Assembly (NCBI GenBank): GCA_945889015.1
Contig: CAMDBL010000012.1
Location: forward strand, 1 to 39,368
Direction: 5' to 3'
Source: Devosia equisanguinis
GTDB lineage: Bacteria; Pseudomonadota; Alphaproteobacteria; Rhizobiales; Hyphomicrobiaceae
DNA: 39,368 nt
The notes under the pieces are model-generated. The model was not told the origin of the DNA. It searched no databases and worked only from the letters and a program-made list of their open reading frames with translations. Position 1 is the first letter of the stretch. Every line of letters begins with the position of its first letter. Shown one piece after another: positions 15,375 to 38,933 of this stretch. A program made the translations under genes and the position numbers.

Positions 15375-16253
15375 ATGCCGGCCGAGATCCCACACCCCGA
15401 CCGTCGCCGGAACGCCTGGCGCGACGATCTCGCCGCCGATGCACTGCGCGGGGTCGTGACCGTGCCGCGCTACGTGGCCGGCACGTCGTGCCAGGTGATC
15501 ACGTCGTCGGCACCGCTGAGGCGCCAGCCGCGAGCCGACGCCGCGCTCGACACCGAGGCGCTGATGGGCGAGGTCGTCAACGTGCTGGAAATTTGCGACG
15601 GCTGGGCCTGGGGACAGCTCGCCCGCGACGGCTATGTCGGCTATCTGCCGGCTTTCACACTGAGCGAGCGTGTCGCCGCGCCGACCCATCGCATCGTGGT
15701 GCCGGCGACGCTGGTGTTTCCTGCCGAAGACATCAAGACGCCACCTCTGACCCAGCTCAGCCTCAACGCCGAGATAACGGTCGAAAGTACGGGCGAGCGG
15801 CTGTCCAGGCTCGCGTCCGGCGGCTTCGTGCCATCACCCCACATCGCCACGATCGACGCCGCCGCAAGAGACTTCGTCACCGTCGCCGAGCAGTTCCTCG
15901 GCACGCCCTACCTGTGGGGTGGCAAGACCCGCGCCGGCCTCGACTGCTCGGGCCTTGTGCAAATCTCGCTGCAGGCCGCCGGCATCGCCGCGCCGCGCGA
16001 CAGCGACATGCAAGCAAGCGAGGTCGGCGATCCGCTCGATCCCGGCGCCTCGCTCGGCGGCCTGCGCCGCGGCGACCTCGTGTGCTGGAAGGGGCACGTC
16101 GGCATCATCGCTGGCGCCGGCACGCTGCTGCACGCCAACGCCCATCACATGGCCGTCGCGCGCGAACAGCTCGGCGAGGCGATCACCCGCATCGCCGCCA
16201 CCTCCGGCGCACAGCCGAGCGCCTGTCGCCGGCTACCGCGCCTCGGCGGCTGA
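15375..16253 (+). CDS. NlpC/P60-family cysteine peptidase with SH3-like domain
   Basis: A 292-residue putative cell-wall hydrolase, probably an endopeptidase cutting stem-peptide bonds in murein peptides. An SH3-like module spans about 38-100. The NlpC/P60 domain from about 165 has nucleophile Cys191 in GLDCSGLVQ, His241 in GHVGII and a third polar residue at His253 or His257. No signal peptide or membrane segment is evident, so it may act on imported muropeptides in the cytoplasm, like dipeptidyl-peptidase VI relatives. GAGGAG lies just upstream of the ATG. It sits 9 bases after the aminopeptidase gene, a common pairing that fits sequential degradation of recycled peptides. Confidence 0.9.
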   Translation: MPAEIPHPDRRRNAWRDDLAADALRGVVTVPRYVAGTSCQVITSSAPLRRQPRADAALDTEALMGEVVNVLEICDGWAWGQLARDGYVGYLPAFTLSERVAAPTHRIVVPATLVFPAEDIKTPPLTQLSLNAEITVESTGERLSRLASGGFVPSPHIATIDAAARDFVTVAEQFLGTPYLWGGKTRAGLDCSGLVQISLQAAGIAAPRDSDMQASEVGDPLDPGASLGGLRRGDLVCWKGHVGIIAGAGTLLHANAHHMAVAREQLGEAITRIAATSGAQPSACRRLPRLGG

Positions 16254-18168: not shown

Positions 18169-19269
18169 ATGAACCGTCGCAAGTTTCTTCGTTCCGGTAC
18201 CGCCATCGCAGCCGGCGCGGGCGCAACCCTTGCCGCGCCCGCCGTCGTCACGGCACAGGCGAAGACCTTCAGCTGGAAGATGACCAACGCCTACGGTCCC
18301 GGCTCGCCGTTCTACGTGCAGGGCCCTGGCTCGCCGACCGACTTCATCAAGATGGTCGACACGATGTCGAGCGGCCGGCTCAAGATCCAGCACTTCGCTG
18401 CCGGCGAGTTGATCCCCGCGCTGGAAGGCTTCGACGCGGTGTCGAAGGGCACCGTCGAGATGAACTGCGCCAACGCCTATTTCTGGGCCGGAAAGACCTT
18501 CGCCGCGCAATATTTCACGGCCGTTCCCTTCGGCTTGAACTTCCAGGGCATGAACGCCTGGCTTTACCACGGCGGCGGCTTGAAGCTGTGGGAGGAAGTC
18601 TACGCTCCATTCGATCTGGTGCCACTGCCGATGGGCAACACCGGCGTGCAGATGACCGGCTGGTTCCGCAAGCCGATCGAGAAGGTCGAGGACTTCAAGG
18701 GCCTCAAGATGCGCATCCCGGGTCTTGCCGGCAAGGTCTACGCGGCCCTCGGCGTGGACGTGAAGCTGCTGCCCGGCGGCGAGATCTTCCCCGCGCTCGA
18801 GCGCGGTGTGATCGATGCGGCCGAGTTCGTCGGTCCGTTCCAGGATCGTCGTCTCGGCCTGCACAAGGCGGCCAAATTCTACCACACCACCGGCTGGCAC
18901 GAGACCGCGACCGTCACGGAGCTGATCATCAACAAGAAGGCTTGGAGCACGCTGCCGCCGGATCTTCAGGAGATCGTGCGCGTCGCCGCCGCCGCCTGCA
19001 ACGTCATCAGCCAGTCGTGGTGCGAGCAGACCAACGCCGAGGCGCTGGACGACCTGGTCAAGAACCACGGGGTCAAGGCGAGCCCGCTGCCACCCGACGT
19101 CATCGCCAAGCTGAAGGAGGTGACGGTGCAGTCGCTCGCCGACGCCACTGCCAAGGATCCGCTCGTGAAGAAGGTCCACGACAGCTACATGACCTTCAAG
19201 GCGAGCGCCGACAAATGGGCAGCGATCTCGGAAGGCGTCTACCACAGCCAGATCCGCGGTCAGATCTGA
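18169..19269 (+). CDS. TRAP transporter periplasmic substrate-binding protein (DctP family)
   Basis: A 366-residue binding protein of a tripartite ATP-independent periplasmic transporter. The N-terminus is a Tat signal (NRRKFLRSG, then an Ala/Gly-rich hydrophobic stretch, likely cleaved after VTAQA). Typical DctP features follow: LEGFDAVSKGTVEMN, the ligand-binding segment DFKGLKMRIPG with the conserved carboxylate-binding Arg, and LPGGEIFPALERGVIDAAEFVGP. The last two resemble the TakP/mannitol-type (DctP7) branch that binds 2-oxo acids or carboxylates. The exact ligand cannot be named. It leads the operon, directly downstream of the sigma-54 promoter, and is separated from the permease genes by a strong hairpin that may favour excess binding protein. 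Confidence 0.93.
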   Translation: MNRRKFLRSGTAIAAGAGATLAAPAVVTAQAKTFSWKMTNAYGPGSPFYVQGPGSPTDFIKMVDTMSSGRLKIQHFAAGELIPALEGFDAVSKGTVEMNCANAYFWAGKTFAAQYFTAVPFGLNFQGMNAWLYHGGGLKLWEEVYAPFDLVPLPMGNTGVQMTGWFRKPIEKVEDFKGLKMRIPGLAGKVYAALGVDVKLLPGGEIFPALERGVIDAAEFVGPFQDRRLGLHKAAKFYHTTGWHETATVTELIINKKAWSTLPPDLQEIVRVAAAACNVISQSWCEQTNAEALDDLVKNHGVKASPLPPDVIAKLKEVTVQSLADATAKDPLVKKVHDSYMTFKASADKWAAISEGVYHSQIRGQI

Positions 19270-19279
19270 TCGCATCGTC

Positions 19280-19303
19280 GGAGCCGGCCACAGGGCCGGC
19301 TCC
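19280..19303 (+). promoter_or_regulatory. Intercistronic hairpin between TRAP dctP and dctQ genes
   Basis: GGAGCCGGCC and GGCCGGCTCC form a perfect 10-bp stem with an ACAG tetraloop, 11 bases after the binding-protein stop codon. A run of C, not T, follows, so it is not a classic intrinsic terminator. Such hairpins commonly protect the upstream message from 3' exonucleases and raise binding-protein levels over permease levels. Confidence 0.6.
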
Positions 19304-19333
19304 CCCCCCCTCCAGGCAGCTTCGGAAAAGCTC

Positions 19334-19873
19334 ATGACAGGCGACGAACAACGGCACGGGCTCGCCCGCCTCGCCGACCGGTTGGACATGTTCATCGATC
19401 GAGTCGGCCGCATCACCGGCTGGTGCTCGTTCGCGCTCGTCTGCGTGATGGCCTTCAACGTGCTGCTTCGATATCTCTTCCGCACCGGCTCCGTCGCCAT
19501 GCAGGAACTCGAGTGGCATCTGATGGCGCCGATCTGCCTGCTCGGCCTCTCCTACGCACTGCTGCACGATGGCCACGTCAAGGTCGACATCCTGTACGGC
19601 CGCTTCCCGCCGCACGTCCGCCGGATCATCGATTTCATCTCGATGCTGCTGATCGTGCTGGTCGTCGCGATCCTGGTTTACCTGTCGCTCCCCTACGTCG
19701 AGCAGTCCTTCCGTATCGGCGAGAAATCGCCCGATCCGGGCGGCCTGACGCACCGCTGGATCCTCAAGGCCATGCTGCCACTCGGTTTCGCGCTGCTGCT
19801 CATTCAGAGCTTCGCATGCATGCTGCGTGCCTGGGTCGCCGTGATCGATCCGTCCGCTCCGCAGATCAAGTGA
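19334..19873 (+). CDS. dctQ: TRAP transporter small permease subunit (DctQ family)
   Basis: A 179-residue membrane protein with four helices at about 27-48, 60-78, 97-118 and 146-166. It contains typical DctQ sequence: NVLLRYLFRTGSVAMQELEWHLM and DGHVKVDILY. It forms the membrane domain together with the large subunit encoded 39 bases downstream; uptake is driven by a sodium or proton gradient. The start is the ATG at 19334. Confidence 0.92.
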   Translation: MTGDEQRHGLARLADRLDMFIDRVGRITGWCSFALVCVMAFNVLLRYLFRTGSVAMQELEWHLMAPICLLGLSYALLHDGHVKVDILYGRFPPHVRRIIDFISMLLIVLVVAILVYLSLPYVEQSFRIGEKSPDPGGLTHRWILKAMLPLGFALLLIQSFACMLRAWVAVIDPSAPQIK

Positions 19874-19912
19874 CGAAAACCGTCTAAGCACAGAACAACA
19901 ACAGGGACGGCC

Positions 19913-21238
19913 ATGAGCCCGAACGAGATCCTTGCGATCCTCTGCATCGTGTCGTTTTTCTGCATGCTGGCGATCGGCATTCCCGTCGCGCTCACGCTCG
20001 CCGTGTCGGGCCTGGTATTCGGCTATCTCGGGTTCGGCGCGACCCTCTTCAACCTGCTTCCCGCGCGCATCTTCGGCGTAACGGCCAACTACACGCTGAT
20101 CGCGATCCCGCTGTTCGTGTTCATGGGGGTGATGCTCGAAAAGTCGAAGATCGCCGATGATCTCATGGACGTCATCGGGCATCTCGCCGGCTCAGTCAGC
20201 GGCGGCATGGGCGTCGGCATCGTCCTCGTCGGCGTGCTGATGGGGGCGACGACCGGGATCGTCGGAGCCACCATCGTCACGCTCGGGCTGATCACGCTCC
20301 CCGCGCTGATGCGGCGCAACTATCACCTGCCCACGGCCTGCGGCACGATCTGCGCCTCGGGCACGCTCGGGCAGATCATTCCGCCATCGACCATTCTCAT
20401 CCTGCTGTCCGACATTCTCGGCCAGTCGGTCGGCACCCTGTTCGCCGCAGCACTCATTCCCGGCCTCCTGCTCTCGGGAATCTTCTGCCTCTACCTGCTG
20501 GCACTCGGCAGGCTGCGGCCGGATCTGGTGCCGCCGGTCTCACTCGCCGAACGCGATCTGATGAGCCGCGCCGAGTTGACGCGGAAGGCCTTGCGTGTCG
20601 GACTGCCGCCCGTGGCGCTGGTGCTCGCCGTCCTCGGCTCTATCATCGGCGGCGTCGCCGCGCCGACCGAGGCCGCTTCGATGGGCGCCCTCGGCTCGAT
20701 CCTGGTGGTCGCGATCGCCGGCCGCTTCTCGTTCCGAGTGCTGCGCGAAGCGACAATGGCGACCACGCGCATCACGGCCGGCATGATGTTCATCTTGATC
20801 TGCGCGCAGGTGTTCGCGCTGACCTTCCGCGGCCTCAACGGCGAGCAACTCGTCCACGACATGTTCAAGTGGATCCCGGGCGGCATCAACGCCGAGATCT
20901 GGTTCATGATGCTGATCATCTTCATCCTCGGATTCTTCATCGAATGGATCGAGATCAGCTACATCGTGGTGCCGCTGTTCCTGCCGATCCTGCAAGCGGC
21001 CGACGTCAATCTCGTCTGGATCGCCATCATGGTCGCCGTCAATCTGCAGACGTCATTCCTGACGCCGCCATTCGGATGGGCGTTGTTCTATCTGCGCTCC
21101 GTGGCGCCACCGGAGGTGCCGACCGGGGCGATCTACAAAGGCGTGTTGCCGTTCATCGGCATGCAGTTCCTGGCGCTGGTGCTGTGCTTCATGTACCCCG
21201 ACGTCGCGCTCTGGCTGCCCCGCGCGATCGGCTGGTGA
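19913..21238 (+). CDS. dctM: TRAP transporter large permease subunit (DctM family)
   Basis: A 441-residue transporter with about twelve membrane helices, the elevator-type translocation subunit of a TRAP system. Family signatures include GIPVALTLAVSG near the N-terminus, FVFMGVMLEKSKIADDL, the re-entrant hairpin region GATTGIVGATIVTLGLI, SGTLGQIIPPSTILI, and near the end NLQTSFLTPPFGWALFYLR. The length is normal. It is the third gene of the operon and is followed after 123 bases by a cyclase-family gene that may process the imported compound. Confidence 0.94.
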   Translation: MSPNEILAILCIVSFFCMLAIGIPVALTLAVSGLVFGYLGFGATLFNLLPARIFGVTANYTLIAIPLFVFMGVMLEKSKIADDLMDVIGHLAGSVSGGMGVGIVLVGVLMGATTGIVGATIVTLGLITLPALMRRNYHLPTACGTICASGTLGQIIPPSTILILLSDILGQSVGTLFAAALIPGLLLSGIFCLYLLALGRLRPDLVPPVSLAERDLMSRAELTRKALRVGLPPVALVLAVLGSIIGGVAAPTEAASMGALGSILVVAIAGRFSFRVLREATMATTRITAGMMFILICAQVFALTFRGLNGEQLVHDMFKWIPGGINAEIWFMMLIIFILGFFIEWIEISYIVVPLFLPILQAADVNLVWIAIMVAVNLQTSFLTPPFGWALFYLRSVAPPEVPTGAIYKGVLPFIGMQFLALVLCFMYPDVALWLPRAIGW

Positions 21239-21361
21239 CGGACAGCGATCCAAACGGGCGGCATGCCTCCAACGCGGCCAGCGCATGTGGCGCCGCTGGT
21301 CTCGTTGCCAAGGGTCCGTTAAGCTGCCCGGCAAACACGTAGAACCCGGGGGCGAGACGCC

Positions 21362-22348
21362 ATGCACAACTCGAGCGACAAGACGTTCCACTTCGACATC
21401 GAGCACATTCGCGCCACGGGCGAGGCTTGCAAGCAATGGGGCAAATGGGGCCCTGACGACGAGAAGGGCACGCTCAACTACATCACCGAGAAGGAGCGCA
21501 TCGCCGCCGCCAAGCTCGTCAAGAAGGGCAAGGCGTTTCCGCTGGGCTTGAACTTCGACGAAAATGGGCCCCAGAAGGGATCGTTCGGCGGGCGATGGAA
21601 CCCGATCCACTCTATGCTCGCGAGCGGCACCGATGCTGTCGCCGGCTATCAGAAGCCGCCCCCAGGCAAGAAGTTCGCCAGCCAGTATGCCGATGATGCC
21701 GTATCTATGCCGCTGCAGTGCGGCACCCAGTGGGACGCGCTCGGCCACATCTTCAACGAAGGCAAGATGTGGAACGGCTACCCCGCCGAACTCGTCGGCT
21801 CGCGCGGTGCGCTCAAGAACTCGATCGACAAGGTCAAGGGCGAGATGTTCGGCCGCGGCGTGCTGCTCGACATCGCGCGGTGGGCCGGAGTCGAAAGCCT
21901 CGACGACGGCACCGCGATCGACGCCGATGATCTCGACGCCTGCGCCAAGGCGCAGAAGGTGGAGATCAGGCGCGGCGACTTCGTGATCTTCCGCACCGGC
22001 CACATGGAGCGCTGCCTGAAGGCCGGCGACTGGGGCGGCTACGGCGGCGGTCCGGCCCCTGGCCTCTCGTTCCACACCTGCGAATGGATCAAGAAGAAGG
22101 AGATCGCCGCGATCTGCGCGGACACCTGGGGCTGCGAGGTGATCCCGAACGAAACCGACGCCTGCTTCCAGCCTTGGCACTGGATCGTGATCCCGATGAT
22201 CGGCATCACCATGGGCGAGATCTTCAAGGTCGACGAACTCGCCCGGGACTGCGCCGAGGACAAGGTCTACGAGTTCCTGTTCTGCGCGCCGCCGCTGCCA
22301 ATCACCCGCGCGGTCGGCTCGCCGATCAATCCGATGGCGGTGAAATAG
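21362..22348 (+). CDS. Putative cyclase / kynurenine formamidase-like metal hydrolase
   Basis: A 328-residue member of the cyclase superfamily (kynurenine formamidase and isatin hydrolase relatives), which use metal to hydrolyse amide or lactam-like bonds. The hallmark HxGTHxDxPxH motif appears as CGTQWDALGH at 120-129, so the first two histidines are Cys120 and Gln123, while Asp125 and His129 remain. The GTQWD form occurs in a large subgroup of cyclases, so this is a subfamily trait rather than damage. Cysteines are unusually frequent. It lies on the same strand as the TRAP genes and probably belongs with them functionally, cleaving the imported molecule or a product of it. The substrate is unknown. 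The ATG at 21362 follows a GGGGGCGAG-type ribosome-binding stretch. Confidence 0.82.
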   Translation: MHNSSDKTFHFDIEHIRATGEACKQWGKWGPDDEKGTLNYITEKERIAAAKLVKKGKAFPLGLNFDENGPQKGSFGGRWNPIHSMLASGTDAVAGYQKPPPGKKFASQYADDAVSMPLQCGTQWDALGHIFNEGKMWNGYPAELVGSRGALKNSIDKVKGEMFGRGVLLDIARWAGVESLDDGTAIDADDLDACAKAQKVEIRRGDFVIFRTGHMERCLKAGDWGGYGGGPAPGLSFHTCEWIKKKEIAAICADTWGCEVIPNETDACFQPWHWIVIPMIGITMGEIFKVDELARDCAEDKVYEFLFCAPPLPITRAVGSPINPMAVK

Positions 22349-28104: not shown

Positions 28105-29286
28105 TCAGCTGCCGGCGGAGTTCCAGCCGCGGCCGGTGTCGCCCAGCCCTTCGAACCCGGTCCCCGTCACCAGCACGGTGTCCTCGAGCTTGACGAAGCC
28201 GCGCCTGGGATGGCGCATCGTGGTCTCCAGCGACAGGCACATGCCCGCCTCCAGTGGCCGCTCGATATCGAAGCCGTCGTACGACCAGCGCGGATTGTTC
28301 ATCACCCGCGGCGCCTCGTGCGTGACGAGGCCCATGCCGTGGGCGATGAAATCCGAGTACTTGGCGTGCGGCGAGGCAGCGACGAGCGCATGCCCGGTCT
28401 CCCAGATGTCGCCGCCGCGGGCGCCGGGGCGGATCTTGCGCCGCGAGACCATCTGCACCTCGTCGATCCAGCCGAGCAGATCGACCAACTCCTGGTCCGG
28501 CTTGCCGATGATGCCCATGCGGCAGAGGTCGCCGATGTAGCCCTTGTAGTTGCCGCCGCTGTCGAGCGAGAGGATGTCGCCGGCCGCGAGCTTCTGATCG
28601 GAGGCGGTACGGTTGAGCGAAGTGCCGGCGGTCATCAGCAGGTAATCATAGACGAGCCCGCGCTCGACCTCCTCACGCCGGAGCGCCTCCTGCACCTGCT
28701 GCTTGGTGGCACCGGGCACGCAATGCCGACGGAACGTCACCATCATTGCGTCCGTCACCCGCTCCGACGCCTCGCGCAGATAGCCGATCTCCTCCGCCGT
28801 CTTTACCGCGCGCATCCGCTCCAGCGGCACCACGGCGTCGACCAGCTCCACGTTGCACAGGCCACGGCGGAGCTCGTCGTGCGCATCGACAGGCAGGAAG
28901 CCCTCCTCGATACCGATCGCGCGGACGGGGCCGAGCTTTCCCACGTGTTCGACCACGCGCTTCATGGTGAAGCGGCTGCCGATCCAGCCGAGGTCGCGAT
29001 TGGGAATGGGAATGCGGCCAAGTTGCTCCTCGAACTTCTCGATGTCGCAGCCGACGTAGGTGGTCCGCTCGGGCTTGCCCTTCTGGTAAATCAGGGCCGC
29101 GAGGTAGCGCGAGGTTCCCGCCGCCTCCATCGTCTCGAAAAAGAAAAAGCGATAGCCACCGAGCAGATACTGGATGTTGTGCCTCGACGTCGCGATGATC
29201 ACATCGAGACCGGCCGCCTCCATCAGTGCGTCGAGCTTGCCCGTGTCGAACGGAACGAGCTTGGGCGCAGTCGCAGCACTTGCCAT
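28105..29286 (-). CDS. M24-family (Xaa-Pro type) metallopeptidase
   Basis: A 393-residue protein with the creatinase/aminopeptidase P architecture: an N-terminal domain (1-165) and a C-terminal pita-bread domain. The five metal-site residues are visible at Asp242 (SLDSGG), Asp253 (GDLCR), His316 (HGMGLVTHE), Glu354 (SLETT) and Glu368 (KLEDT), so it should bind two metal ions. M24B proteins include proline dipeptidases but also hydrolases such as creatinase, ectoine hydrolase and DddP. Its DxxxD spacing does not show the DddP pattern, and the substrate stays open. The ATG at 29286 has GAGGAG 8 bases upstream; the long open extension beyond it is not conserved-looking. It converges with the sulfotransferase gene. 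Confidence 0.9.
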   Translation of the reverse strand: MASAATAPKLVPFDTGKLDALMEAAGLDVIIATSRHNIQYLLGGYRFFFFETMEAAGTSRYLAALIYQKGKPERTTYVGCDIEKFEEQLGRIPIPNRDLGWIGSRFTMKRVVEHVGKLGPVRAIGIEEGFLPVDAHDELRRGLCNVELVDAVVPLERMRAVKTAEEIGYLREASERVTDAMMVTFRRHCVPGATKQQVQEALRREEVERGLVYDYLLMTAGTSLNRTASDQKLAAGDILSLDSGGNYKGYIGDLCRMGIIGKPDQELVDLLGWIDEVQMVSRRKIRPGARGGDIWETGHALVAASPHAKYSDFIAHGMGLVTHEAPRVMNNPRWSYDGFDIERPLEAGMCLSLETTMRHPRRGFVKLEDTVLVTGTGFEGLGDTGRGWNSAGS

Positions 29287-31523: not shown

Positions 31524-32738
31524 CTACAACGGCTTGTCGTTGCCGAGCGTGGTCTGGCCGATGCCGAATTTGTCTGCCAGCCAGTCGAGCATGATCTCCT
31601 GGCCGATCGTCGGATTGTCATGCTGACAGTGGTCGGCGCCGGTCTCCTCCTCGGTGACGAAGCGCAGCGTCACGTCGAGGCCGACCTTCCTGGCGTAGTC
31701 GTGGACGAGGTTGGCCGTCTGCACGCCGAGGACATCATGGCCTCCGTGGCAGATCAGGAATGGGCACTTCATGCTGTCGAGCGCGCCCTCGAGCTTGAAC
31801 GCCTTCGACACCTCCCAGACGTCCTTCATGCTCGTGCTGCCGAACACCCAGCGCAGGTGGCTTGCCAGCATATGGTCGTCGTCGCGCTCGCGCATGCGGG
31901 AGCCGACGTCCCACTGGGCGCCATGCGCGATGCAGGCGGCCAGCCGCGGCTCCTTGGCGCCGGCGCGAGCCGCATAGTAGCCGCCGAGCGAGGATCCCGA
32001 GACCGCGATGCGATTCATATCGACGTCGGTGCGCGTACCGAGCCAGTCGATGCAGGCGCCGACCGGAACCTCGTAGTCGAACCGCGTCGGAATGCCGAGC
32101 CTGCGCAGCGTGCCGCCCTGGCCCGGACCATCGACGAGCAGCACCGAGATTCCCCGCTGCAAGGCGCCGCGGCCTACCATGAACCAGAGCTCGTCCTTGA
32201 AACTGTCGAGTCCGCCGAACGCGATCAATACGGGTTGCTTGGGCGTATGGTAGGGCGCGCGGATGAAATAAGCGTAGAGGTGCTTGCCCTCATACGGCAC
32301 GTGCACGACCTCGCCCTTGGGCACGCAGCAGTCGAGGAACTTGTGCGTCGCCGCCTCGCACTTCTCGAAGGTCGCCATGCGGCGCGGATCGTCGTGCGTC
32401 AGCCAGAATTCTGCGGAGCGGTAGAGGTCGGCTGCTCGAAGCCAGCAGTTCATGGCCGTGCGGACATGCCCCTTGGCCGCCTCGTCGTCGCCGCGACGCA
32501 TGTTGTTGTCGGAGACCTTGAGCAGCTCCATGTGCCAACTGTCGAGATCGCCGGGCTTCATCCGGCTCGCAGCCAGGAACAACTCGGAGACCGAGCCGCC
32601 GCCTTCCTGGGTCTCGCCGAGGGCGCGGCGGAACTGATAGCTCAGCCAGGGAAACTCGGGCCAGTGCTGCCAGCCGTAAGGCTCGTAATGAGGCAGCTCG
32701 CCCTGCCTGACGACGTTGATTCCGAGCGCTTCGGCCAT
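31524..32738 (-). CDS. Alpha/beta hydrolase, pseudooxynicotine-hydrolase-like (paralogue A)
   Basis: A 404-residue hydrolase with a helical N-terminal cap (1-145) rich in aromatic residues and a C-terminal alpha/beta core. The triad is visible: Ser250 in SGSSLGGYY, Asp335 in HGGHDVLG and His370 in GADHCQHD. The oxyanion-region motifs are FGGLDSFKDE and DGPGQGGT. The cap-plus-core layout resembles 2,6-dihydroxypseudooxynicotine hydrolase and the FrsA/DUF1100 group; the former cleaves a carbon-carbon bond. It is closely related to the first gene of the same operon (36742-37968) throughout its length. GAGGAC lies 7 bases upstream of the ATG. As last gene of the operon, 50 bases after the permease gene, it probably acts on the imported compound or its product. 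Confidence 0.88.
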   Translation of the reverse strand: MAEALGINVVRQGELPHYEPYGWQHWPEFPWLSYQFRRALGETQEGGGSVSELFLAASRMKPGDLDSWHMELLKVSDNNMRRGDDEAAKGHVRTAMNCWLRAADLYRSAEFWLTHDDPRRMATFEKCEAATHKFLDCCVPKGEVVHVPYEGKHLYAYFIRAPYHTPKQPVLIAFGGLDSFKDELWFMVGRGALQRGISVLLVDGPGQGGTLRRLGIPTRFDYEVPVGACIDWLGTRTDVDMNRIAVSGSSLGGYYAARAGAKEPRLAACIAHGAQWDVGSRMRERDDDHMLASHLRWVFGSTSMKDVWEVSKAFKLEGALDSMKCPFLICHGGHDVLGVQTANLVHDYARKVGLDVTLRFVTEEETGADHCQHDNPTIGQEIMLDWLADKFGIGQTTLGNDKPL

Positions 32739-32788: not shown

Positions 32789-33622
32789 TCACGTATTGGT
32801 CTTCATGCCCCAGCGGTCGATGGTCCGCCGCTCGACCCAGTCGAAGAACCAGTTCTCCGACACCCAGCCGATCATCGCGATCGTGATCATGCCGCAGACC
32901 ATGATGTCGGGGCGCAGCTGCCATCTCGCGTTGTCGATCAGAAACCCGAGCCCGACGATCGAGGAGATCATCTCGGCACCGACGATCACACGCCAGCCCA
33001 CACCATAGGTGAGGCGCAGGCCGGCGATGATGAACGGCAGCGATCCCGGTATCAGGATGCGCCGCGTGTAGAGACCGCGAGGTGCCATGTAGACCCGCGC
33101 GACGTCCGTATACTGCCCGGACAACGTCTGTACGCCGGCCATCGTATTGAAGATGATTGGCCAGATGCCGGAGAAGAAAATCACGAACACGGTCGAGTTG
33201 AAGCCGACGCCGAACCAGAGGATGGCGAGGGGAATCCAAGCGATACCGGGGATGGGATAGACCAGCCGGCAGAGCGGGAGGAACGCCGCACGTGCCGTCG
33301 GCGACGCCCCGAGGGCCAGTCCGACGGGGATGCCGAATATCGCCGCCAGGATCACGCCGGTGAACTGGCGCAGCATGCTGGCGCCGGCGTTGGTCAGCAA
33401 CTCGCCGCTGAGCGTCAGATCGTAGAAGGCTCGCGCCACCTGGATCGGCGAGGGAAATGCCCACTTGGGCATCAAGCCAAACCGGAACACCGCTTCCCAG
33501 ATGATCAAAAGGGCGATGATCGTACCGCCGCCGAGCAGCATGTCGCGCGAGGTCGAGGGGAGTTTCCAGGACGCGCGCTGCATTGCCACCTCGCGGCTGT
33601 CGGTCGTCGTTGCGTCAGCCAT
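32789..33622 (-). CDS. ABC transporter permease (SsuC/TauC type)
   Basis: A 277-residue inner-membrane permease with about six helices. It contains the conserved cytoplasmic EAA-like loop around GSLPFIIAGLRLTYGVGW, and the C-terminal WQLRPDIMVCGMITIAMIGW typical of the nitrate/sulfonate/taurine/thiamine-precursor group. It follows the ATPase gene after 5 bases and presumably forms a homodimeric channel. Start is the ATG at 33622. Confidence 0.92.
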   Translation of the reverse strand: MADATTTDSREVAMQRASWKLPSTSRDMLLGGGTIIALLIIWEAVFRFGLMPKWAFPSPIQVARAFYDLTLSGELLTNAGASMLRQFTGVILAAIFGIPVGLALGASPTARAAFLPLCRLVYPIPGIAWIPLAILWFGVGFNSTVFVIFFSGIWPIIFNTMAGVQTLSGQYTDVARVYMAPRGLYTRRILIPGSLPFIIAGLRLTYGVGWRVIVGAEMISSIVGLGFLIDNARWQLRPDIMVCGMITIAMIGWVSENWFFDWVERRTIDRWGMKTNT

Positions 33623-33627
33623 GATCG

Positions 33628-34416
33628 TTATCCCGCTGCAACCAGATCGGCCTTCTCGTAGGCCGCCGCCCTGTCGATTTCCTCGGCCAGGATGCCGCGC
33701 ACCTGCCGATAGATCGCGCTCATGGCCGGCGATGTCATATCGCGCGGCCGTTCCTCCTCGACCTCGATCACCGCCTTGATGCGACCGGGACGCGCCGTCA
33801 TGATGACGATGCGGTCGGAGAGGTAGATCGCCTCCTCGATGGCATGGGTCACGAAAATCACCGTCTTGCGGTAGACCTTCCAGATCCGCAGCAATTCCTC
33901 CTGCATGACCGAGCGCGTCTGGGCATCGAGTGCGCCGAACGGCTCGTCCATCAGCAGGTACTTTGGCTCCACCGCCAGCGCCCGCGCGATCGACACGCGC
34001 TGCTTCATGCCGCCGGAGAGATGATGCGGGTACTTCCTGGCGAAGTCCTGCAGGCCGACCACCTTCAGCAGCTCCGCCGACGTCCGGCGCCGAGCGGCGG
34101 GCGGCACGCCGCGCGCCTCCAGCCCGAACTCGACATTGTCCTCCACCGTCATCCAGGGGAACAAGGCGTAGTCCTGGAACACGACGGCGCGCTCGGGTCC
34201 AGGCCCCTTCACCGTCGCGCCCTCGATCTCGATCTGGCCGCCGGTCGATCCGATCAAGCCGGCGGCGATCTTGAGCAACGTCGACTTTCCGCAGCCGGAT
34301 GGACCGAGCAGGCTGACGAACTCGCCGTCGCGGATGTCGAGGTTGATGTTCTCGAGGGCATGCACCTCGGCTTCGTTGGTGCGATAGGTCTTATACAGGT
34401 CGGTCACGGTCAGCAT
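33628..34416 (-). CDS. ABC transporter ATP-binding protein (SsuB/TauB type)
   Basis: A 262-residue ATPase energising the importer. It has Walker A GPSGCGKS (38-45), Q-loop Gln81 in VVFQDYALFPW, signature LSGGMKQR (133-140), Walker B YLLMDEP (153-159) and the switch His191 (VTHAIEEA). The sequence belongs to the nitrate/sulfonate/taurine importer branch. I chose the ATG at 34416, 11 bases after the stop codon of the binding-protein gene, with GAGG in between; an in-frame GTG at 34431 overlaps that stop codon. The permease gene follows after 5 bases. Confidence 0.93.
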   Translation of the reverse strand: MLTVTDLYKTYRTNEAEVHALENINLDIRDGEFVSLLGPSGCGKSTLLKIAAGLIGSTGGQIEIEGATVKGPGPERAVVFQDYALFPWMTVEDNVEFGLEARGVPPAARRRTSAELLKVVGLQDFARKYPHHLSGGMKQRVSIARALAVEPKYLLMDEPFGALDAQTRSVMQEELLRIWKVYRKTVIFVTHAIEEAIYLSDRIVIMTARPGRIKAVIEVEEERPRDMTSPAMSAIYRQVRGILAEEIDRAAAYEKADLVAAG

Positions 34417-34427
34417 CGGGTGGCGCC

Positions 34428-35417
34428 TCACTTCTTGAGCTTTTCCCAGCCGGGATAGCCGGGGTAGCTCTTGGCGAAGGAGGCATCGACGAGATCTTCG
34501 TACTTCACCGGATTCTGGATGAGCTTGTCCTCTGTCATCCAGGCCATCGTCGTATCGATCCAGCTCTTGGGGATCTCGTTGTAGGTCCAGGCGCAGTTGT
34601 CGTAGCTGTCCTCGATGAGCTTCTCGTCCATCGCCTTGTTGTAATGCTTGATCACCTTGATGCCGGTCGCCTTGTCCGCCCGCATCAGATGCACGGCATC
34701 GAGATGTGCCCAGACAATCTTCTGCGCCAGGTCCTTGTGCTCGGCGATGAACTTCTTGTTCAGGATCAGCGCATTTCGCAGCAGATCCGGAAAGCCCTTC
34801 GACTTGTCCATGAGATCGCCGGCCGCCAGCAGCAGCTTGGCGCCCTTGGCGATGGCATTGGTACCGTACGGCTCGAACGGGAAGGCTGCCGCGACGTCTC
34901 CGGTCAGCAGACCGGCGGCGATCTCGGGCACCGGCACCTGGGCCGGCTGGATGTCCTTCTCGGTCAGACCGAAGCGCGGCAGGATGTGCTTCATCAGCGC
35001 CATGTACTGCATGTCGTACTTGGTCACGATGCCGAACCGCTTGCCCTTGAGATCCGCCCAGGACTTAACGTTCGGATTGGCGACGATCAGCGCACAATTC
35101 GCAGACGACGGAGCCACGATGACATTGGGGATGCCCGCCGAATTGTAGCGGACGGCACTGGCGATCTGATTGTAGCCGGCGTCGAAGTCGCCGATCGACA
35201 TCTGCTGGTTCGATCGAATGTAGTTGCCGCCGGTGAACGTAACCTTCAGACCGTACTTTTCCCAGATCTTCAGGTACTCGGCCATGAACGGCTGGATGTG
35301 ATCGTAGCCCGGCGAGCCCGCGACGACGCGGACGGAGTAGTCCTGCGAAGCTGCAGGAACCGTGCCGGCAAGGACGCCGGCCGCAGCAATGGCAATGAAG
35401 CGACGCCGTACCATCAT
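34428..35417 (-). CDS. ABC transporter substrate-binding protein (NMT1/TauA-like)
   Basis: A 329-residue periplasmic binding protein. The signal peptide has a basic RRR start, a hydrophobic Ala-rich core and likely cleavage after PAAS before QDYS. The mature part shows the NMT1/SsuA/TauA layout: GDFDAGYNQIASAVRYNSAG, then LKGKRFGIVTKYD and GDVAAAFPFEPYGTNA. The mature sequence carries several Trp and Tyr residues, which would suit an aromatic or heterocyclic ligand; that is only a hint. The ribosome-binding site GGAGAAGAG sits before a double ATG (35417 or 35414). It lies between the BtrH-like gene (62 bases upstream) and the ATPase gene (11 bases downstream). Confidence 0.92.
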   Translation of the reverse strand: MMVRRRFIAIAAAGVLAGTVPAASQDYSVRVVAGSPGYDHIQPFMAEYLKIWEKYGLKVTFTGGNYIRSNQQMSIGDFDAGYNQIASAVRYNSAGIPNVIVAPSSANCALIVANPNVKSWADLKGKRFGIVTKYDMQYMALMKHILPRFGLTEKDIQPAQVPVPEIAAGLLTGDVAAAFPFEPYGTNAIAKGAKLLLAAGDLMDKSKGFPDLLRNALILNKKFIAEHKDLAQKIVWAHLDAVHLMRADKATGIKVIKHYNKAMDEKLIEDSYDNCAWTYNEIPKSWIDTTMAWMTEDKLIQNPVKYEDLVDASFAKSYPGYPGWEKLKK

Positions 35418-35479: not shown

Positions 35480-36727
35480 TCACTCGGCTGCGATCGCCGG
35501 CTGCCGCCGAGGGCGTGCGGTGGTGATTTCCTTCACGTCGCTCCAGGCCTCCCGCATCGAAGCCAGAGCCTGCAACTCGTGATCGGCGATCCGGGCCAGC
35601 ATGTCGCCACCGACCCGAGTGTCGGACTGATAGCGCAGCTCACGGAAGATATCCGAGGAGGCCCGCATGCTGGCGGCCGCGCGCTCGATCGCCCCCGATG
35701 CCAGTCCGCGCAGTCGCATTTCGCCGGCCACCCGGTTCAGGTAACCCGCCGCGCCCGCACGTCCGAGCACACCGTGATTGGGAATGTTGGCTTTGGCGAA
35801 CAGCGGCTCTCGCGTGCCGTCGGGCTTCAGCGCATCCTCGAACTCGCCTTTGCGGATCGCCTCGGCGCAGCGGGCCATACCGGGCGCGCCCGCCTCGTAG
35901 CGCGGGATCTGCCACTGACTGAAAAACACCGAGTACGGCTTGGGGTACTCGCCGCCGAGGATCTTGATGTTGCGCGCGAAGCTGTGGCGGATCGAGGCGG
36001 CGATGTCCCAGGCGGGATCGCGCCCCGGCTCGATCCAGATCATCAGAAACGGTCCGTAGCCATCGTGCAGCGTCCACTCGCCGTCCCAGGCCTTGTGGTC
36101 GACCCACGGGGCGAACCCGTTGGCGTCGCGCTGGCTCGCCTCCTCCCACGCACGACGAAACACGGAGATCGGTGCCTCGTACCTGGAATGCGGCATCGTG
36201 TCGTTCGGCTCGAACACCGTCACGGTGCCTTTCGCGAGATCGTAGCCCGCGATGACGACGTGGTGGCCGAAGCCGGTAGGTGGCATGATCGAGTGCAGAA
36301 ACGCTAGCCGCGGCGACGTCTTGGCGCCATAGGGCAGCAGATGCGAGTAGTGCAGGCCGACCTGCACCGGTATGCCGCGGTCAATCAGGCCACAGAGCTT
36401 GGCGAACGCCTCATCGAACCCGCCTTCTGCGTCCTCTTCCCACCTCAAGTCGAAGCCGAGCGCCTTGCTCGTATACTCCCAGATCTCGTGAAACGCGCCC
36501 TTGCCGCCGTTGAAGGCCGGACACCCCCACTTGGACCACCAACGAAATGAAAATCCGTCACCGGACGTTCCATCCGCGAACAGGATGTCGCTTTCGCCGT
36601 TGAGACGATACATGCCAAGCAGACCGGTGAAATAGCAGCGTCCGGCGTTGGCGTTCTCGGGATAGCCCTTGGGACCGAGCCACGTCATCGAATAGTAGGC
36701 GTCGTCATAGGCCTTGATCTCAGGCAT
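35480..36727 (-). CDS. BtrH_N / C39-fold-like protein in a transport operon
   Basis: A 415-residue protein. Its first half resembles the N-terminal domain of the butirosin protein BtrH, which has a papain/C39-like cysteine-peptidase fold. Cys31 lies in AGRCYFTG, a glycine-rich stretch ADGTSGDGFSFRWW at 51-64 follows, GLHYSHLLPYG is at 124-134, and GHHVVIAGYD at 154-163 brings His155/His156. VFEPND at 171-176 supplies the Asn or Asp. This gives an ordered Cys-His-Asn/Asp triad. The second half (230-415) is helical and unrecognised. BtrH itself is an acyltransferase acting on an acyl carrier protein substrate; this protein could be an amidase, acyl- or glutamyl-transferase, or non-catalytic. 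GGAGGC precedes the ATG. It is second in the operon, 14 bases after the first hydrolase gene. Confidence 0.75.
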   Translation of the reverse strand: MPEIKAYDDAYYSMTWLGPKGYPENANAGRCYFTGLLGMYRLNGESDILFADGTSGDGFSFRWWSKWGCPAFNGGKGAFHEIWEYTSKALGFDLRWEEDAEGGFDEAFAKLCGLIDRGIPVQVGLHYSHLLPYGAKTSPRLAFLHSIMPPTGFGHHVVIAGYDLAKGTVTVFEPNDTMPHSRYEAPISVFRRAWEEASQRDANGFAPWVDHKAWDGEWTLHDGYGPFLMIWIEPGRDPAWDIAASIRHSFARNIKILGGEYPKPYSVFFSQWQIPRYEAGAPGMARCAEAIRKGEFEDALKPDGTREPLFAKANIPNHGVLGRAGAAGYLNRVAGEMRLRGLASGAIERAAASMRASSDIFRELRYQSDTRVGGDMLARIADHELQALASMREAWSDVKEITTARPRRQPAIAAE

Positions 36728-36741
36728 CGGAGCCTCCGTCG

Positions 36742-37968
36742 TCAGATCAGGGGATTGAGGGATTTCGTCATCAACATGCGCTGGTCGATACCGAAGCGAT
36801 CCGCCAACCAGTCGGCCATCAGCTCCTGGCCGATGGTGGCGTTGTCGTGCTGGCAATGCTCAGCACCGGTTTCTTCCTCGGTGACGAAGCGCAACGTCAC
36901 GTCGACGCCGCTGGCCTTGGCATGGTCGTGAACCTGAGTGGCCGCCGCCACGCCGAGAACGTCGAAGCCGCCATGCACGATCAGGTAGGGGCATTTCATG
37001 TTCTTCAAATGCCCCTCGAGCTTGAACGGCTGGGCGCGCTCCATCGCCTCCTTCATCGTCCTGGTGCCGAAGACCCACTTGATGTGATCGGCGAGGCCGT
37101 GTTCCTCGGTGGCGCCTTCCCACAGCGCCGGGATAGACCAGATCGCGCCGTGCGAAATGGCGGCGGCGAGGCGTGGCTCATAGCAGCCGGCGCGCGCCGC
37201 GTAGTAGCCACCGAGCGAAGAGCCGCAGACCGCGATGCGGCTGGGATCGATATCGTCACGCTGCTCGAGCCAGTCGATGCAGCGTCCAATCGGCACCTCG
37301 TAGTCGTGCCGGGTCGGAATCTTGTGACGGCGCAGCGTCCCGCCCTGCCCTGGACCGTCGATCATCAAGACCGAGATGCCGCGCTGCAGAGCGCCGTGCG
37401 TCTGCATGAACCACATCTCGTCCTTGATGCTGTCCAGGCCACCCATCGAGATCATGCAGGGCTGCCGGCCGGTATCGAAAGGGGCCCGCACGAAATAGGC
37501 GCACAGCGAGGCGCCGTTCTCGTAGGGAATATCGACCGGGATGCCGGCCGGCCGCAGTTGGGCGATGAACTTCTTGCTGCAGGACTCCATCAACTCGAAC
37601 GTCGCCAGACGGCGCGGCTCTTCGGGCTCGAGCCAGAACTCCGCTTGCCGATAATAGTCCGCCGCCCGTAGCCAGCAGTTCTTCGCGGTCTGCACATGGC
37701 CCTTCGCCATCGCCTCGTCGCCGCGCGTACGATTGAAGTCGGCGACGGCCATCCACTCGACGTGCCAGCTCTCCTTGTCCCCGGGGATCATCCGGCTCGC
37801 GGCCCTGAAGCACTCCGAGACCGTGCCGCCGCCCTCCGACGTCTCTCCGAGCGCGCGCCGGAACTGGTAGCTCATCCACGGATGGTCGGGCCAATGGTGC
37901 CAGCCGAAGGGCTTGTAATGAGGGTCCTTGCGATCCGAGGCCTCGTCAATCAACAGCTTTTCCGCCAT
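36742..37968 (-). CDS. Alpha/beta hydrolase, pseudooxynicotine-hydrolase-like (paralogue B)
   Basis: A 408-residue paralogue of the hydrolase at 31524-32738. They share the N-terminal pattern (GWHHWPDHPWMSYQFRRAL against GWQHWPEFPWLSYQFRRAL) and a full triad, here Ser251 (CGSSLGGYY), Asp336 (HGGFDVLG) and His371 (GAEHCQHD). Differences cluster in the cap (130-170) and in the segment after the nucleophile (272-300, AIWSIPALWEGATEEH against AQWDVGSRMRERDDDH), which lines the active site in relatives. That suggests different but related substrates. The ATG at 37968 has AGAGGAC immediately upstream; a start at 38010 is less likely. It is the first gene of the operon, 269 bases from the divergent regulator. 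Confidence 0.88.
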   Translation of the reverse strand: MAEKLLIDEASDRKDPHYKPFGWHHWPDHPWMSYQFRRALGETSEGGGTVSECFRAASRMIPGDKESWHVEWMAVADFNRTRGDEAMAKGHVQTAKNCWLRAADYYRQAEFWLEPEEPRRLATFELMESCSKKFIAQLRPAGIPVDIPYENGASLCAYFVRAPFDTGRQPCMISMGGLDSIKDEMWFMQTHGALQRGISVLMIDGPGQGGTLRRHKIPTRHDYEVPIGRCIDWLEQRDDIDPSRIAVCGSSLGGYYAARAGCYEPRLAAAISHGAIWSIPALWEGATEEHGLADHIKWVFGTRTMKEAMERAQPFKLEGHLKNMKCPYLIVHGGFDVLGVAAATQVHDHAKASGVDVTLRFVTEEETGAEHCQHDNATIGQELMADWLADRFGIDQRMLMTKSLNPLI

Positions 37969-38026
37969 GTCCTCTCTCGCCTCACGCTTGCCACGCGGCC
38001 CAAGTTGCATGCTACTTTCTCTTTAG

Positions 38027-38237: not shown

Positions 38238-38933
38238 ATGGGAAACATGACCAGGACAGGATCGAAGTCTCCGGCGAAGGCTGCCGCGCGCAAGCCACCG
38301 GCTCGAGGGCGGCAGTCAGCCGACGGACAAGCCGACGACGATGCCCTCGCGGCCGATACCGCAGACACGCCGCCGCCGCTCCAGATCGGAACGCGCCTCC
38401 ACCATGCGCGCCTGTTGCGCGAAGCCCGCATGAAGGACATCGCACAGGCGGCTGGATGCTCCGAGAGCCTCATATCCAAGATCGAGAGCAACAAGCTGGT
38501 GCCGTCGCTGCGGGTGCTGCACCGCATCTGCGAGGCCCTCAACATCGCGATGGGGGATCTGCTCGGCGGCAGCGCACCGTCCGACAAGGTCGTCACGCGG
38601 GTAAGCGAGCGCCATATCGTCTCGATCGATGCGCTGCGCACGGGGAAGGGCATCCGCATGGAGCGCCTCATTCCCTACGCGAAGGGACATTTGCTTCAGG
38701 GCAACATCCACATCGTCGCGCCCGGCGGCACCACCGACGGCGACATCACGCACAGCGGTGAGGAGGTCGGCTACGTCATCAGCGGCCGGATCGCGCTGAC
38801 GGTGAACGGAACCACCTACGAGGTGAGCGAGGGGGATTCGTTCTGCTACCGCTCCGACCTGCCCCACGGCTATCGCAACATCGGCGACACCGAGGCTCGC
38901 GTGCTCTTCATCAATACGCCACCGACGTTCTGA
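38238..38933 (+). CDS. XRE-family regulator with C-terminal cupin domain
   Basis: A 231-residue transcription factor. After a disordered Lys/Ala/Pro-rich N-terminus (1-48), an XRE helix-turn-helix spans about 51-108 (DIAQAAGCSESLISKIESNKLVPSL). A cupin_2 sensor domain covers 155-228 (HSGEEVGYVISGRIALTVNG, and YRSDLPHGYRNIG) with His172, Glu176 and His210 as possible metal or ligand contacts. Regulators of this type usually repress adjacent uptake and catabolic genes (amino acids, polyamines, small acids) and respond to the substrate through the cupin. It is divergent from the six-gene operon, which makes it the likely local regulator. ATG at 38238 or at 38247 could be the start. Confidence 0.9.
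   Translation: MGNMTRTGSKSPAKAAARKPPARGRQSADGQADDDALAADTADTPPPLQIGTRLHHARLLREARMKDIAQAAGCSESLISKIESNKLVPSLRVLHRICEALNIAMGDLLGGSAPSDKVVTRVSERHIVSIDALRTGKGIRMERLIPYAKGHLLQGNIHIVAPGGTTDGDITHSGEEVGYVISGRIALTVNGTTYEVSEGDSFCYRSDLPHGYRNIGDTEARVLFINTPPTF

Follow-up and report, generated by a model that had tools for sequence, protein, structure and literature searches.

Cysteine enzymes of the BtrH type are characterised for joining amides in antibiotics. BtrH itself is an acyl carrier protein:aminoglycoside acyltransferase (passages of PMC10318531), while the lincosamide condensing enzymes CcbD and LmbD form amides by a carrier-dependent ping-pong mechanism with a Cys-His-Glu triad, CcbD being tolerant of many acyl and amine partners (passages of PMC12945683). 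The BtrH family is also placed among transacylase-like enzymes of peptide-synthesis neighbourhoods in the relevant passage of a 2010 paper (PMC2922099). BtrH-type annotation outside antibiotic clusters has precedents. A "butirosin biosynthesis protein H" from an acetone cluster of Desulfotomaculum geothermicum is, in passages of PMC8084838, abundant during growth on acetone, and a passage of PMC12863089 shows a BtrH-annotated gene of Haloferax mediterranei in the vicinity of phaC. The Desulfotomaculum cluster resembles the locus described below by annotation, but belongs to a CoA-dependent ketone pathway (passages of PMC8084838). Beyond these annotations, titles, beginnings of abstracts and text passages yielded no description of a catabolic BtrH-type enzyme with carbon-carbon hydrolase partners, and no paper was found on a degradation cluster combining these families.

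The gene analysed here lies in a 39,368-nucleotide stretch of Devosia equisanguinis DNA, referred to as the window (Table 1). Its product has no signal sequence evident by eye. The placement given in the first-pass annotation, between a hydrolase gene and a binding-protein gene, holds: an alpha/beta hydrolase gene (HydA) is located upstream, ending 14 bp before the start of the BtrH-like gene, and an ABC-type binding-protein gene downstream. Genes of this operon overlap or are separated by short gaps, the largest of about 62 bp.

Table 1. Features of the BtrH-like operon and of the BtrH-like protein (window coordinates)
Feature	Position	Strand	Remarks
Divergent XRE-cupin regulator	38238..38933	+	
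HydA, alpha/beta hydrolase of the DHPON-hydrolase/Ayg1/AntI kind	36742..38010	-	PDB 2jbw, E 5.1e-27; Pfam FrsA-like
BtrH/CcbD-like cysteine enzyme gene	35480..36727	-	415 aa; ATG at 36727, stop ends at 35480
N-terminal papain/C39-like domain	36026..36727	-	Residues 1-234, approximate boundary; sub-threshold Pfam matches, profile alignment, fold ranges
Cys31 codon, predicted nucleophile	36635..36637	-	Aligned with invariant Cys of BtrH_N proteins
His155 codon, predicted catalytic His	36263..36265	-	Aligned with invariant His of BtrH_N proteins
Glu173 codon, predicted catalytic acid	36209..36211	-	Aligned with invariant Asp of BtrH_N proteins
C-terminal helical domain	35480..36025	-	Residues 235-415; counterpart of C-terminal half of BtrH_N proteins; score of C-halves, full alignment to 393
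ABC substrate-binding protein, NMT1/SsuA type	34428..35417	-	Open frame to 35483, likely start 35417
ABC ATPase	33628..34431	-	
ABC permease	32789..33622	-	
HydB, HydA paralogue, last gene of the set	31524..32738	-	Likely start at 32738

A relation to C39 and BtrH_N domains had been proposed from the letters of the sequence, on the basis of ordered Cys31, His155/His156 and Asn175/Asp176 and of the motifs GHHVVIAGYD and VFEPND. All these residues and motifs occur in the translation where they were placed, and the resemblance is above chance. The Pfam models Peptidase_C39_2 and BtrH_N (PF14399) both match all ten members, i.e. the window protein and its nine orthologues, at E <= 1, with best E-values of 5.4e-5 and 7.3e-4, respectively. 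The window protein itself stays below the gathering cut-offs of both models, with 18.6 bits against 24 for Peptidase_C39_2 (residues 101-175) and 19.1 bits against 29.7 for BtrH_N. Pfam and NCBIfam scans gave no match above a curated cut-off, and the protein was not reported by a BtrH_N search of its own genome at E <= 0.001 and is not filed as a PF14399 member. Searches of PDB sequences with phmmer and hmmsearch retrieved nothing significant; 8gbe came closest, with E 1 and 0.065, respectively. Guanylate_cyc_2 is weakly matched by five of the ten members (best E 0.011).

For profile comparison, 11 BtrH_N matches above the Pfam cut-off were collected from 10 of 299 genomes, and the ten with cleaner starts were aligned (alignment A2; the truncated L082 was omitted). 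Using hhalign, the ten-member profile aligns with A2 over residues 28-393 (296 columns, probability 96%, E 5.5e-9 in a single comparison), and Cys31, His155 and Glu173 meet the invariant Cys, His and Asp of A2. An earlier comparison with nine of the 11 BtrH_N proteins, their starts untrimmed, was set against 60 column-shuffled profiles and a reversed profile. The full-length score of 38.7 exceeds both the shuffled maximum of 22.5 and the 19.8 of the reversed profile. C-halves alone score 22.3, above the 19.3 that shuffled ones reach at most (n=60). N-halves alone score 20.4, which one of the 60 shuffles equalled, so they are not separated from controls; a mismatched pair of N-half and the other family's C-half scores 20.3 over 33 columns. 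Since the split halves are weaker, it is the full-length signal that carries the case for family membership.

Comparison of predicted structure, the other check proposed in the first-pass annotation, likewise found a relation to the BtrH-type fold. The AlphaFold2 model, built from the ten sequences, is of modest quality (pLDDT 62.6, pTM 0.66; pLDDT below 50 at residues 1-34). Even so, the six matches that Foldseek gives at E <= 0.001 (best 2.2e-5) are without exception CcbD chains, at TM-scores of 0.38-0.54. In VIA, the first 14 rows are AziU3 (PDB 7wuw, 8gs1), CcbD and CtaG (PDB 9quz and variants), with Z of 11.7-13.3 and rmsd of 4.8-6.7 over 267-293 aligned residues. They span residues 29 to 400, and the row after them has Z 7.9. 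Chance alone can give mostly helical models such Z values; these 14 rows are credible because all of them agree with the separate sequence result. AziU3 and CtaG, which we take to be antibiotic biosynthesis proteins, share only 8-12% identity with the window protein. CcbD and LmbD (PDB 7yn1, 7yn2, 9dkr, 9dks) resemble it in that both domains are covered and in the Cys-His-Glu triad predicted here, but are 10-16% identical and are not matched by sequence profile. CcbD further differs in that a carrier protein supplies its acyl groups and that its gene lies within an antibiotic cluster. CcbD rows in VIA begin after Cys31, itself within the low-pLDDT stretch of the model, and so do not bear on its position. 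Titles of PDB entries name the variants C19S of CcbD and C11A, H128A and D144N of CtaG. The A2 profile finds AziU3 among PDB sequences (E 1.4e-5); with E <= 10 as the limit, CcbD and CtaG are not found.

Taken together, these comparisons identify the window protein as remotely related, over its full length, to the BtrH/CcbD/AziU3/CtaG cysteine enzymes. Both parts of this two-domain superfamily are present: an N-domain with ordered Cys, His and acid and a C-terminal helical domain, as seen in the profile alignment and in fold matches that reach residues 395-400. Such coverage bears on whether the protein could instead be a C39/papain-type peptidase with a peptide or protein as substrate. The best E-value of Peptidase_C39_2 is indeed better than that of BtrH_N, and the C39-like chain 3erv is matched in VIA at Z 7.9 over 90 residues; however, similarity to C39 is confined to a portion of the N-terminal domain, whereas that to BtrH-type proteins extends over both, and the ORF has no exporter fusion. 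A peptidase thus appears very improbable.

Alignment of orthologues bore out the expected conservation: Cys31, His155, His156, Glu173, Asn175 and Asp176 are invariant in all ten sequences, of which that from L006 is C-terminally cut. Two details of the first-pass annotation need revision. Asn175/Asp176 had been taken as the third catalytic position and are conserved, but it is Glu173 that meets the invariant Asp of the BtrH_N family, and the distance of 18 residues between His155 and Glu173 equals that between His127 and Asp145 in the BtrH_N protein L081. Judged from these alignments, Glu173 rather than Asn175/Asp176 most likely fills the third catalytic position, which would make the triad Cys-His-Glu, as reported for CcbD. 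The C-terminal half, described before as unrecognised, can be recognised as the helical domain of the family, since the profile alignment is full-length and the fold ranking places AziU3, CcbD and CtaG first. Compared with BtrH_N proteins, the window protein thus shares the aligned Cys and His, an acid opposite the invariant Asp and a single alignment across both halves, but has no counterpart of the GTGG-GFR stretch that is conserved across the ten aligned PF14399 proteins and scores below their cut-off.

Relatives of the gene were sought in a genome collection by a scan for exact short peptides, which may miss remote or diverged copies. It retrieved 29 stretches, nine of them encoding BtrH-like relatives 62-69% identical to the window protein. 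Their hosts are alpha- and betaproteobacteria (Bradyrhizobium, Xanthobacteraceae, Rhodospirillales, Ramlibacter, Bordetella, Rubrivivax and others), with a single BtrH-like copy per genome in all nine (E <= 0.01). No further orthologue was found among 397 other genomes of the phylum, 99 other relatives (samples that overlap), 241 other genomes of the genus of one host (G491) or 348 others of the family of another (G496); the searches of 397, 241 and 348 genomes scored the best first-look candidates per genome, a procedure that remote or diverged copies can escape. Plasmid records contained no orthologue either. The BtrH-like gene is rare. Its rarity, along with close similarity across two classes, suggests horizontal transfer.

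In all nine loci, an alpha/beta hydrolase gene of the HydA/HydB type is found near the BtrH-like gene, and most loci also have an uptake gene; the view that the gene sits outside known antibiotic clusters therefore stands. Every one of the ten genomes with a BtrH-like gene contains a match to the HydA query, with a best E-value of 2.7e-175 or lower in each. At E <= 1e-100, none of 248 other genomes of the phylum has a match to HydA, and none of 199 other genomes of the G496 family has one to HydB. Because the genes are mostly neighbours, this co-occurrence counts as one association, not as ten independent ones. Both HydA and HydB are present in six of the ten genomes; G490 has HydA only, G493 and G497 have HydB only, and in G494 HydB is accompanied by a fragment resembling HydA, situated where a contig ends. 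In three genomes (G492, G496, G498) a HydA copy is located on a contig other than that of the BtrH-like gene.

The closest PDB relative of HydA is 2,6-dihydroxypseudooxynicotine (DHPON) hydrolase (2jbw, E 5.1e-27, residues 80-411), followed by 3fnb, named as an acylaminoacyl-peptidase (5.1e-18), the Ayg1-like 8qd7 (9.2e-14) and AntI 6hxa (2.5e-9). Ser, Asp and His motifs are kept in HydA and HydB alike, and both can be regarded as DHPON-hydrolase-like, HydA by its relation to 2jbw and HydB as its paralogue. The likeness to 2jbw is one of sequence; no nicotine gene was recognised among the genes scanned. 2jbw, Ayg1 and AntI presumably cleave carbon-carbon bonds next to carbonyl groups. A first hydrolase tree was uninformative on account of four very long rows and was rebuilt with 17 rows, drawn from 23 hydrolase matches. 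In it, L050 and L064 (copies of the window) were replaced by the window sequence and L067 by the third hydrolase of L003, and L066 (a fragment) and L068 to L072 (distant) were omitted. HydA and HydB fall on opposite sides of a branch with 97/93 support. The third hydrolase of L003 (9194-10360) is a divergent alpha/beta hydrolase, about 35% identical to HydA and HydB, encoded between permease and HydB.

The matches of HydA to Ayg1-like protein and AntI, and the known occurrence of the BtrH fold in such pathways, would also suit a small secondary-metabolite or polyketide-tailoring pathway, in which HydA and HydB would shorten chains, the BtrH-like protein would form an amide and the importer would take in a precursor. 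HydA is nonetheless nearer to DHPON hydrolase. The neighbour genes scanned, a limited sample, encode no ketosynthase or carrier domain, and the sole adenylate-forming enzyme among them is an acyl-CoA-ligase-like protein encoded in L001, about 4.6 kb from the BtrH-like gene. Neighbours are instead uptake genes, amidohydrolase families and regulators of the IclR, GntR and XRE-cupin families. We consider a pathway of this kind improbable.

Uptake genes differ among the loci. The ABC set of the window also occurs in L002 and L003, and in the genome of L006 on another contig (L094). A TctC-type receptor is found in L004, L005, L007, L008 and L009 (by Pfam for L007, by tblastn at 60-83% for the others), and L001 has an MFS-like transporter, recognised by eye. 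An XRE-cupin regulator similar to that of the window (46-47% identity) is divergent from HydA in L001, L002 and L006. Further, a gene similar to PuuE allantoinase is present in five of the nine loci (L001, L002, L006, L007, L008), its copies being 77-92% identical to that of L002; in L007 and L008 it precedes the BtrH-like gene by 13-14 bp. L002 encodes both a biuret-hydrolase-like isochorismatase and an ACMSD-like amidohydrolase; L006 shares the first of these and L001 the second. In the 39 kb of the window, no close relative of the PuuE-, isochorismatase- or ACMSD-like genes was found, and four of the nine loci are without the close PuuE-like gene. PuuE-like genes of the window genome are 32-51% identical and located on other contigs; a nearby linked PuuE-like step was rejected for this genome, the closest copy (51%) adjoining cytochrome bd genes. 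PuuE-like genes of about 50% identity also occur in G492, G493, G494, G496 and G498, on contigs apart from the BtrH-like gene. These belong to clusters (L086 in G496, L087 in G492, L088 in G494, L090 in G498, L091 in G493) with one or two PuuE-like genes each, accompanied by a selection, different from genome to genome, of HydA-like, isochorismatase-like, ABC transporter and amidohydrolase genes. Several open frames were discarded as genes (L002 2965-4629 and 4666-5799; L001 12126-13142 and 13235-14203; L008 7013-7915): they have no Pfam match, and the genes on the opposite strand do.

The BtrH-like enzyme probably helps to break down an imported nitrogen-containing compound. The reading we put first, tentatively and with slightly less than even confidence, is that the soluble two-domain BtrH/CcbD-type cysteine enzyme serves as a catabolic hydrolase in the uptake operon of this compound. 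The importer (NMT1/SsuA-type ABC here, TctC-type receptor in other species) would take in a small nitrogen-containing molecule. Cys31, activated by His155 and Glu173, would attack an amide (or ester/thioester) carbonyl with formation of an acyl-enzyme, from which water would release the acyl group. HydA/HydB-type serine hydrolases, acting before or after, would cleave a carbon-carbon bond adjoining a ketone. The hydrolysed amide, ester or thioester would belong to the imported compound or to a breakdown product. Observation covers the ORF and its conserved residues, the relation of both domains to the family, the triad alignment, the layout of the operon and the association with HydA/HydB-type genes, whereas catalysis, hydrolytic direction, order of steps, carbon-carbon cleavage and the kind of substrate we infer. 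As importers and hydrolases surround the gene and no carrier is seen, water would be the likeliest acceptor.

In a more specific and still more tentative form, a fold for carrier-dependent amide synthesis may have been recruited, with its Cys-His-Glu triad and without a carrier, as a hydrolase dismantling a nitrogen-containing compound, probably a cyclic amide or ureide. It would act with an exchangeable importer, with DHPON-hydrolase-like carbon-carbon hydrolases and, in several species, with PuuE-, isochorismatase- and ACMSD-like enzymes. Several observations speak against a catabolic hydrolase: BtrH and CcbD/LmbD, as far as the passages of PMC10318531 and PMC12945683 describe them, form amides with acyl groups bound to a carrier; the window lacks the PuuE-, isochorismatase- and ACMSD-like genes; HydA and HydB are not both found everywhere; and L001 contains the ligase.

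The same relatives, as ping-pong Cys acyltransferases with BtrH acting on aminoglycosides (passages of PMC10318531) and CcbD accepting many acyl and amine partners (passages of PMC12945683), invite the idea of an acyltransferase within the degradation pathway. An acyl group arising from the carbon-carbon hydrolases, or from acyl-CoA, would be moved via Cys31 to an amine, either on the imported compound or on its product, and the ligase-like gene of L001 could be part of such a route. This ligase was seen in one locus only among the neighbours scanned, and the six proteins of the window operon that were scanned do not include a CoA ligase. ORFs of 65-130 aa, in the nine loci and over the last 11 kb of the window, were searched with a crude carrier-protein motif; a carrier acting in trans would fall outside these stretches. 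No carrier-protein-like gene was detected, the one hit, in L005, being membrane-like and due to chance. Nor do the genes of the window operon leave enough room between them for a carrier gene. An acyltransferase is thus rather unlikely in our estimate. An amide may, as first supposed, be made or broken on the imported molecule; of the two, we prefer hydrolysis.

If a hydrolase is indeed at work here, the BtrH-like fold, described so far for amide joining, also serves degradation, and the enzyme might offer a carrier-independent catalyst for comparison with CcbD. The set of BtrH-like and HydA/HydB-type genes is compact and rare, and would mark a pathway whose substrate growth tests could find.

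Other genes of the window were noted as well. Downstream of the operon, an M24 creatinase/prolidase-type protein is encoded at 28105-29280, with a DUF900 alpha/beta hydrolase gene in between. A second set of uptake and hydrolase genes in the window occupies 18169-22348: a TRAP transporter, its DctP receptor identified by Pfam and its two membrane subunits recognised by eye, and after it a putative cyclase of PF04199. An NlpC/P60 protein with SH3 domain (15375-16253) is apparently unrelated to the BtrH-like operon.
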